From NCBI GenBank assembly GCA_019686135.1, contig JADGHL010000019.1, positions 1-55,071 on the forward strand: 55,071 nucleotides of DNA. The letters run 5' to 3'. The DNA is from Myxococcaceae bacterium (GTDB lineage: Bacteria; Myxococcota; Myxococcia; Myxococcales; Myxococcaceae). The stretch's first letter is position 1. Every line of letters starts with the position of its first letter. This document shows positions 42,039-44,596 of the stretch, piece after piece. The notes beneath the pieces are model-generated. The model had not been told where the DNA came from. It was given only the letters and a program-made list of their open reading frames with translations, and searched no databases. A program made the position numbers and the translations under genes.

Positions 42039-43100
42039 ATGAACCGTTCCAACCGTCCGTCCCAGCCGAAGCGCCTCACCGAGTTCGCGCACTGCGCGGG
42101 TTGAGCCGCCAAGCTCCGCCCGGCGGATCTGGCGCAGGTCCTGCGCCGCCTGAAGACTGCTCGCAGTCCGCTGGCGCTGGTGGGCTTCTCCACCAGCGAC
42201 GACGCGGCCGTGTATCGACTGAGCGCCGACACCGCGATCGTCGAGACGGTCGACTTCTTCCCGCCGGTGGTCGACGACCCGGTTGTGTTCGGGGAGATCG
42301 CCGCCGCGAACGCGATCTCCGACGTGTACGCGATGGGCGGCAGGCCCCTGTTCGCGCTCAACCTGGTGGCGTTTCCGAAGGAGCTGCCGCTCGAGGTGCT
42401 GGAGAAGATCCTCGAAGGCGGACAGCGCAAGGCGGACGAGGCCGGGATCCCCATCCTCGGCGGTCACAGCATCAGCGATCCCGAACCGAAGTACGGGATG
42501 GCCGTGACCGGTGTGGTCCACCCGAAGCGGGTGCTCACCAATGCGGGCGCGAAGCCGGGAGACGCGCTCATCCTCACCAAGCCGATCGGGTCCGGCATCG
42601 CCACCACCGCCATCAAGCGCGGGCTCGCTGACGCAACGTTGGCGAAGAACGTGGTCGAGGTGATGGCCCGGCTGAACAAGGCGGCGGGCGAGGTGTTCGC
42701 GTCGCCGAAGCACAAGGTGCACGCGCTGACCGACATTACCGGGTACGGGCTGCTCGGGCACCTCTGGGAGATGATGCGGGGCGCCAGGGCGCGGGCGCGG
42801 CTGTTCCTTCCGTTCGTGCCCATCCTCGAGGGCGTCCCCGCGCTGGCTGGAGACGGCGTGGTGCCTGGTGGCACGCGCGCCAACCTGGAGTGGGTGGCGC
42901 GGCGGGTGAAGTTTCCGAAGGACCTCCCCGAGCCCGTCCGTCTGGTGCTCGCCGACGCGCAGACCAACGGCGGATTGCTCGCGGCGGTGCCCGCACGGGC
43001 GGCGCATCGGGTCATCGACGCGCTCGCGCGCGCGGGCGTGGACGGGGCGTTGATCGGCGAGGTGCACGAGGGACGGCCCGGCATCGACGTCATCATCTGA
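42039..43100 (+). CDS. selD: Selenide, water dikinase containing selenocysteine
   Basis: 353 residues if the in-frame TGA at 42102-42104 is read as selenocysteine. SelD makes selenophosphate from selenide and ATP for selenocysteine and selenouridine synthesis. The start MNRSNRPSQPKRLTEFAHC leads to AGUAAK, with Sec22 and Lys25 corresponding to the catalytic Cys17 and Lys20 of E. coli SelD (C-x-x-K). The rest is continuous and conserved (DDAAVYRL, ETVDFFPPVVDDP, GGHSISDPEPKYG, LTDITGYGLLGHL, LADAQTNGGLL). A SECIS-like hairpin follows the UGA. Without readthrough the longest standard ORF starts at 42180 and lacks the catalytic residue. Confidence 0.92.
42105..42147 (+). promoter_or_regulatory. 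Candidate bacterial SECIS element in selD
   Basis: Downstream of the UGA (42102-42104), the mRNA can form a perfect 7-bp stem GGCGCAG (42131-42137) / CTGCGCC (42141-42147) with the loop GUC. The loop lies 34-36 bases after the UGA, within the spacing reported for bacterial SECIS elements, and contains the G-U bases that SelB contacts. The coding sequence (LAQVLRR) is compatible with it. Confidence 0.6.
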
Positions 43101-43804
43101 GGCGACGCAGGAGGTGCGCTGCGCGTGGCACTCCGGCGCATGCTGCCCCGTCGCGCCGGTTCACGCACGGCTCCGGTGCGCTTGCGGCCGCGGCTGCGCC
43201 GATGCGCGTCGCGCTTGGGGCGCACACGCTCCGGAGCCCAGCTTCAGCGCGTGTAGCTCGTGCGTTTGTGGCCGCTTCGCGAATCGTCCTGAGCGTCGGG
43301 CTTCGGCGGATGCGGCTTGGGTGCGCGGGCTTCAGGGTGCGTGGGTCCGGCGTTTGTGGCCGCTTCGCGAATCGTCCTGACCGTCGGCGCTTCGGCGGAT
43401 GCGGCTTGGGTGCGCGGGCTTCAGCGTGCGTGGGTCCGGCGTTTGTGGCCGCTTCGCGAATCGTCCTGAGCGTCGGAGCTTTGGCGGATGCGGCTTGGGT
43501 GCGCGGGCTTCAGCGTGCGTGGGTCCTGCGTTTGTGGCCGCTTCGTGAATCGTCCTGCGCGCAGGCGCTTTGGCGGATGCGGCTTTGGTGCGCGGCTTCA
43601 CCGCCGGACCTTGCGGGGATCGCTCCTGCGAGCGTCGCGACTGTTCCACCGGACCCCATTCCGGTGCTCCAACCCTACGCGGATCGTTCCGCCGGTTGCC
43701 GCTTCGGCTGATACCACTTCGGCGTGTGCTCCGCAGTCGCCGAGAGCCCGGACCGCGTCGCTGAATTGGGACCGGCGCCGGGCGCAGGTACGATGCTGGC
43801 GCCT
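43101..43804. other. Non-coding region between selD and the amidase gene
   Basis: A 704-base gap. Most of it is the tandem repeat array at 43206-43605, described separately. The left part (43101-43205) and right part (43606-43804) have no convincing ORF, promoter or terminator. The open frames through the repeats change frame between copies (89 is not a multiple of 3), so they are not coding. Confidence 0.6.
43206..43605. repeat. Imperfect 88/89-bp tandem repeat, about four copies
   Basis: Copies at 43262-43349 (88), 43350-43438 (89), 43439-43527 (89) and a partial, more diverged copy at 43528 to about 43605. A degenerate fragment of the unit precedes them (43206-43261). The first three copies are nearly identical, differing by a few substitutions and one indel. 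Each contains the palindrome TTCGCGAA inside GGCCGCTTCGCGAATCGTCC. A non-coding minisatellite is the simplest reading. Confidence 0.85.
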
Positions 43805-44596
43805 ATGGCGCGCTCCCTCCTCGTGATCGCGGCGGTGATGCTGGCCGGAGTGCCGGCTGTCGCGCGGGCGGCGCCGCCTCCGGTGATCGTGATCGACCCC
43901 GGGCACGGCGGAGCGGCGGATGGTGCGGTCGGCGCGGATGGCTCGAAGGAGAAGAACGTCTGCCTGCAGATCGCCCGGCGGTTGCGCACGCACCTCGAGG
44001 CGCTCGGGGCCCGGGTGTTCCTCACCCGCGAGAAGGACGTCGACGTGCACCTCTCCGACCGGGTGGCGTGGGCGAACCGCAGGTCGCCCTCGCTGTTCAT
44101 CTCGGTCCACGCCAACTCCATGCCCACCCGGAAGCTCCGCGAGCGGATCATGGGCATCGAGACCTACTTCCTCTCCGCCAGCGCCTCGGGGACGGAGGCG
44201 GCCTTTACCGCGGATCGCGAGAACGCCGAGGGACCGTCGACGTCCGACGGCCCGCATGACGACACGCTCGCGTTCATCCTCGCGGACCTGCAGCGCGCGG
44301 AATCCCACGCCGACTCGTCGCGGCTCGCCTATGCCGTGCACGCGCGGTTGATCGAGGCGACGCAGGCCACCGACCGCGGGGTGCAGCAGGCGCCGTTCTA
44401 CGTGCTGAACGGGCTGGAGGCGCCGGCGATCCTCGTGGAGGTGGGCTACATCTCGCACCCCGTCGAGGGGAAGCGGCTGTCCGACAAGGCGTATCAGGAG
44501 AAGCTGGCCCAGGCGATCGCCGCCGGGGTGAAGGACTTCCTCGCGCAGGTCGGCGGGCGCGACGCGGAGAAGACGGCGACCGCGCCGGCGCCGTGA
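43805..44596 (+). CDS. N-acetylmuramoyl-L-alanine amidase (AmiC-type)
   Basis: 263 residues. A signal peptide (MARSLLVIAAVMLAGVPAVA) directs it to the periplasm. The catalytic Amidase_3 domain has IDPGHGGAADGA, LFISVHANSMPT and APAILVEVGYISHP, carrying the Zn ligands and the catalytic Glu. It cleaves the amide bond between MurNAc and the stem peptide during daughter-cell separation. There is no AMIN or SPOR targeting domain. The start at 43805 gives a clean signal peptide; ATG 43793 is the alternative (MLAPMARS). It is upstream of rph. Confidence 0.9.
   Translation: MARSLLVIAAVMLAGVPAVARAAPPPVIVIDPGHGGAADGAVGADGSKEKNVCLQIARRLRTHLEALGARVFLTREKDVDVHLSDRVAWANRRSPSLFISVHANSMPTRKLRERIMGIETYFLSASASGTEAAFTADRENAEGPSTSDGPHDDTLAFILADLQRAESHADSSRLAYAVHARLIEATQATDRGVQQAPFYVLNGLEAPAILVEVGYISHPVEGKRLSDKAYQEKLAQAIAAGVKDFLAQVGGRDAEKTATAPAP

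Follow-up and report, generated by a model that had tools for sequence, protein, structure and literature searches.

An 88/89-bp tandem array between selD and an amidase gene of a Myxococcaceae bacterium: very probably a lineage-specific intergenic minisatellite

What kind of sequence are the four 88/89-bp copies that stand head to tail between a selenophosphate synthetase gene and an N-acetylmuramoyl-L-alanine amidase gene, and do they serve the genes on either side? The window in which they lie, by which we mean the whole stretch of DNA that was analysed, comprises 55,071 nucleotides of a Myxococcaceae genome (contig JADGHL010000019.1). An initial sequence-only reading of this window had described the copies as a non-coding repeat and had offered three explanations for them, namely a minisatellite, a structured RNA with repeated units, or a multi-site protein-binding region. 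We found no paper on this locus in the literature, judged by titles and the starts of abstracts.

The array, its flanks and its neighbours

TRF reports one array at 43241-43600 (period 89, 4.1 copies, 92% matches) with a score of 587, and the remaining four arrays that it lists in the window score only 52 to 67. The description of a real tandem array with four copies, three of them near-identical, is therefore borne out: copies 1-3 share 95.5-96.6% identity in pairwise comparison, and their identity to copy 4 is 76-78%. The array had been said to begin at 43206, but its recognisable start lies nearer 43241, and the end given by TRF (43600) falls inside copy 4 (Table 1). Of the 23 variable columns in the alignment of the four copies, 15 are found at the right end of the unit (columns 69-89). 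The palindrome that had been ascribed to every unit is present in copies 1-3 (TTCGCGAA) but not in copy 4, which reads TTCGTGAA. This gradient of identity, with an alike centre and a diverged edge, is consistent with the recent expansion or homogenisation that had been proposed from the letters.

Table 1. Features of the array and its surroundings (window coordinates)
Feature	Position	Strand	Basis or remark
selD (selenophosphate synthetase), upstream neighbour	42039..43100	+	Pfam AIRS, AIRS_C on 42183-43097; start 42039 by eye
Probable decayed unit copies, selD to array	43119..43219	+	Gapped local alignment score 59
Partial diverged copy, left edge of array	43241..43261	+	TRF start; direct repeat family D2
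Repeat copy 1	43262..43349	+	88 nt
Repeat copy 2	43350..43438	+	89 nt
Repeat copy 3	43439..43527	+	89 nt
Repeat copy 4	43528..43615	+	88 nt; diverged to the right, with TTCGTGAA in place of the palindrome
Possible decayed copy, amidase side	43675..43727	+	nhmmer with unit profile, E 0.26, 9.8 bits
TACGAT box, probable -10 element of amidase promoter	43789..43794	+	Ten bases 5' of ATG 43805
N-acetylmuramoyl-L-alanine amidase, downstream neighbour	43805..44596	+	Pfam Amidase_3, E 3.1e-52

Unit-like sequence may extend beyond the array on both sides. Gapped local alignments to the flanks were made with the doubled consensus unit as query and with dinucleotide shuffles as the null. The upstream flank (43101-43240) scored 59, a value that was reached by 1 of 3000 shuffles and, among 8230 tile-strand scores from other places in 416 kb, by 0.02%, with controls of 43 for the reversed query and 32 for the reverse complement; when 43173-43261 was taken alone, 4 of 300 shuffles reached its alignment score. 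The downstream flank scored 46 (controls, 32 and 31), which was reached by 17 of 3000 shuffles of 43616-43804, by 9 of 3000 shuffles of 43660-43804, and by 1.4% of the tile-strand scores in 416 kb. On this side, 43675-43727 is where the unit profile, the array itself apart, matches best within 796,419 sampled bases of the own genome, a sample made up of 39 stretches of up to 20 kb, chosen non-randomly, together with the window. Two places in other genomes, picked by the whole-genome searches, nevertheless beat this match (12.5 and 10.1 vs 9.8 bits), and in an ungapped lag test neither 43101-43261 nor 43527-43700 showed a clear peak at 88/89. Because of these shuffle counts, the rival profile matches and the flat lag test, we regard the decayed copies upstream as probable and the one downstream as possible only. 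Decayed similarity in the flanks is what would be expected if the centre of the array is homogenised and its edges decay. Four of the best-scoring unit-like tiles were inspected (L073, L080, L079 and L083); those in L073 and L080 each contain an open frame whose third-position G+C is high, and the tile in L079 is non-coding in appearance.

The location between selD and the amidase gene is confirmed by Pfam matches for both neighbours. An in-frame TGA at 42102-42104 of selD lies within the motif HCAG-U-AAK, and the product is for this reason probably a selenocysteine-containing SelD which the ORF lister had shortened; across 30 loci, the own one included, this codon is TGA in 15 and a cysteine codon in 15. 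Between the selD stop (43100) and the amidase start at 43805 the spacer measures 704 nt, and an alternative in-frame start of the amidase gene, the ATG at 43793, would overlap the TACGAT box. This promoter-like box, which was aligned between the window and nine chosen relatives, sits 3' of the array in the window. A TAGCAT/TACGAT box is found in the short gaps of 13 of 21 relatives, which are not mutually independent, against 0.8% of base-shuffled gaps, and the box in the window is the probable -10 element of the amidase gene. Since the array sits between selD and this probable promoter, neither neighbour need be affected by it.

Occurrence of the unit in the genome and among relatives

Searches for the unit in the own genome and in relatives had been put forward as checks by the sequence-only reading. 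In the own genome (5.5 Mb in 245 contigs, 97% complete) the unit is found at a single locus at E<=0.001, and the next match has E 0.06. Among relatives, weak matches do exist in 4 of 144 other genomes of the order (E 2.4e-4 to 6.6e-4, 41.9 to 43.7 bits), and none of them is surrounded by an array. A longer query, run against 60 genomes among which the own genome is the sole member of its genus, gave four other matches of 42.8 to 43.7 bits; the match in genome G047 is common to both searches, which leaves seven distinct weak places (L003, L004, L005, L006, L063, L064 and L065). TRF finds no array of period >27 at any of the seven, and four of them have, in their middle 300 nt, a frame uninterrupted by stop codons in which third-position G+C is at least 0.86. 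The exact 28-nt core is absent from genome_contigs and viral_contigs, the exact 30-nt core is absent from genome_contigs, and a distant blastn search of plasmids and phages returned no match; in all three cases, the collections may lack records closely related to the genome of the window.

The gap itself was compared in 29 relatives, taken as the best-matching of 57 other genomes in which a selD-like match was present. The amidase was found by tblastn in the fetched stretch of 26 of them. From the selD stop to the aligned amidase start the distance is below 200 nt in 21 of these 26 and 480 to 1142 nt in the remaining five, compared with 704 nt in the window. No array of period >18 was reported by TRF in the gap, or in its fetched part, of any of the 29 relatives. 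In two of the five long-gap relatives (L056 and L060) a further gene is apparent by eye between selD and the amidase gene, and this we take, from its motif, to be a putative thioredoxin-like gene. We also considered whether the unit derives from an ancestral short spacer and rejected the idea, as the gaps of the 21 relatives have no similarity to it beyond that of shuffles (the scores were attained by between 26 and 197 of 200 shuffles).

A TRF survey of the 796,419 sampled bases returned 33 rows of period 30 or more, with several rows per array, and in 31 of the 33 the period is divisible by three. One of the two exceptions is the selD-amidase array; the other is a 178-bp duplication in two copies, close to the end of contig C138. 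Arrays of the 88/89 type consequently look uncommon in the sampled part of the genome, and the same 31 rows suggest that tandem-repeat coding sequences are probably common in it. Large arrays of the own genome lie at L095 11938-13635, L099 14821-15512, L100 10773-11593 and L111 8972-9767, with periods of 42, 96, 108, 111 and 165 bp, all multiples of three; in several of them third-position G+C is ambiguous as to coding. The 178-bp tandem duplication at L079 11026-11373 (2.0 copies, near a contig end) includes an apparent gene end together with sequence downstream of it.

The array is also conspicuous in composition. Its + strand has an A/T skew of -0.62, the strongest among 250-nt windows in 416 kb, where the next value is 0.60. 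We counted this poverty in A against the minisatellite reading; a four-fold repetition of an A-poor unit would in itself lengthen an A-poor stretch. A genome-wide class of A-poor spacers, to which the array might have belonged, was rejected on the same extent of sequence (416 kb), in which 59 co-directional spacers, delimited by crude gene calling, have a mean skew of -0.015. A similar-looking spacer, A-poor on the - strand, lies at about 1200-1550 of L079, a stretch for which TRF lists no array with a period of at least 30.

Weighing the alternatives

Could the array be part of a gene? A repeat-containing coding sequence would correspond to the ORF at 42890-43711 on the + strand (273 aa) or to that at 43332-43649 on the - strand, and the preponderance of periods divisible by three in the 796-kb sample speaks in its favour. 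The + frame, moreover, stays open through the entire array, so that of the two grounds on which the repeat had been called non-coding the period, which is not a multiple of three, stands, but the supposed change of open frames from copy to copy does not. We attribute the open + frame, however, to the scarcity of A on that strand (each copy has 5 or 6), and A-poverty alone makes stop codons rare; the same frame also overlaps the end of selD. The copies, with their period of 88/89, differ by one base in length, codon-position G+C is flat over the array (0.67-0.71 per position in all six frames, as against 0.91-0.96 at third positions of four neighbouring genes), and a Pfam search to E 1 gave no match for either long frame. 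We therefore rejected a coding repeat, on the period, the codon-position G+C and Pfam, as extremely improbable. A structured or repeated non-coding RNA, such as an extended 3' UTR of selD or a small RNA of repeated modules, would accord with the position of the array 3' of selD on the same strand, with its asymmetric strand composition, and with the result that no terminator-like site was found in 42900-43900, where shuffles average 1.0. This option of the sequence-only reading is nonetheless quite unlikely, and it was discarded on the folding scores and the Rfam search: folding does not surpass that of shuffles for the four units on the + strand (z 0.29 to 1.19), for copy 2 read on the - strand (z 1.05) or for the whole 704-nt spacer (z -0.08, 20 shuffles), and an Rfam search to E 5 left the spacer unmatched, the sole match (E 0.33, under the gathering score of the family) being inside the amidase gene. 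Nor was a sigma-70-like promoter, the one promoter type covered by the scan, found in 42900-43900.

The remaining option of that reading, a multi-site binding region, supposes a protein that recognises the 20-nt palindrome GGCCGCTTCGCGAATCGTCC at sites 88-89 bp apart and either regulates the amidase gene or organises the DNA. The copies are indeed regularly spaced, and about 3% of shuffled units contain a 20-nt imperfect palindrome of equal quality, with 8 of its 10 pairs formed and the central 8 bp perfect; four other genomic places match the 20-mer core at up to three mismatches (three mismatches each), against none for the reversed control. On the other hand, 51% of dinucleotide-shuffled units carry a perfect palindrome of at least 8 bp, and TTCGCGAA shows no enrichment over the 796 kb sampled of the own genome (29 observed, counting the three of the array, vs 25.8 expected). 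Variable columns are not significantly scarcer in the 20-nt palindrome region than elsewhere in the unit, either among copies 1-3 (0 of 20 vs 5 of 69, Fisher P 0.58) or in columns 1-68 of copies 1-4 (1 of 20 vs 7 of 48, Fisher P 0.42), both comparisons being of low power. With the palindrome broken in copy 4, and with no array of this period in the gap of the 29 relatives, binding at many sites gained no positive support and appears unlikely. A more specific version, in which a genus-specific set of three to four candidate sites centred on GGCCGCTTCGCGAATCGTCC was recently amplified upstream of the amidase promoter and lets a regulator tune the expression of the cell-wall amidase, seems to us very unlikely. 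A mobile-element minisatellite, for example a MITE with internal tandem repeats, has a published precedent in BrickBuilt (PMC4596501), but the array occupies one place in the own genome and the best ungapped inverted repeat between its flanks is reached by 60 of 100 shuffles; the single occurrence and the want of significant inverted repeats make this origin scarcely credible, and we set it aside.

The minisatellite, which was among the explanations first offered, is the one that agrees with the TRF array, its single locus and the lack of a coding or RNA-structure signal. Taken together, the near-identical centre, the diverged edge copy, the confinement to one locus, the lack of such signals and the absence of any such array in the relatives examined argue strongly for a lineage-specific, non-coding intergenic minisatellite, and we hold this reading with high confidence. 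The array would have arisen by tandem duplication of a stretch of about 89 bp that lay downstream of selD and upstream of the amidase promoter. The copy number may then have been altered by slippage or unequal recombination, which would also have kept the central copies similar, and the outer copies would have gathered substitutions and small deletions. It is the pattern of identity along the array that suggests this course of duplication and homogenisation. The array is presumably neutral and looks like an ordinary bacterial minisatellite, for which we found no function. A cautionary point follows for the reading of such loci, in that neutral tandem duplication can yield a striking, palindrome-bearing array in a G+C-rich genome.

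Comparison with known repeat systems

Minisatellites are tandem repeats with a unit of about 10-100 bp, and they may also be coding. The array studied here consists of head-to-tail copies far above chance, at a non-coding intergenic site, and shows no dispersal in the genome. Regular spacing and a partial palindrome within the repeat recall CRISPR arrays, which are composed of regularly spaced repeats, with a partial palindrome, and unique spacers. The array is not a CRISPR, however, because the sequence between the palindromes is itself repeated as part of the whole 88/89-nt unit and there are thus no unique spacers.

A further likeness is to BrickBuilt, a minisatellite-MITE of Porphyromonas gingivalis, which is intergenic and consists of 23-nt tandem repeats with small inverted-repeat ends, with 19 occurrences in one genome (PMC4596501). 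Both are intergenic tandem repeats in a bacterial genome, but they part in the length of the unit (88/89 nt here), in the number of places (one locus here) and in the ends, since the array has no significant inverted repeats.

The array is in several respects like bacterial VNTR loci: non-coding copies of tens of bp stand head to tail at a single intergenic locus, and near-identical central copies are accompanied by a diverged edge copy. Bacterial intergenic minisatellites and VNTR loci serve MLVA typing, and their defining practical feature is a copy number that varies among strains, whereas the array described here is known from one genome. Given strains of the genus, it could become a typing locus of this kind, with copies of graded age.
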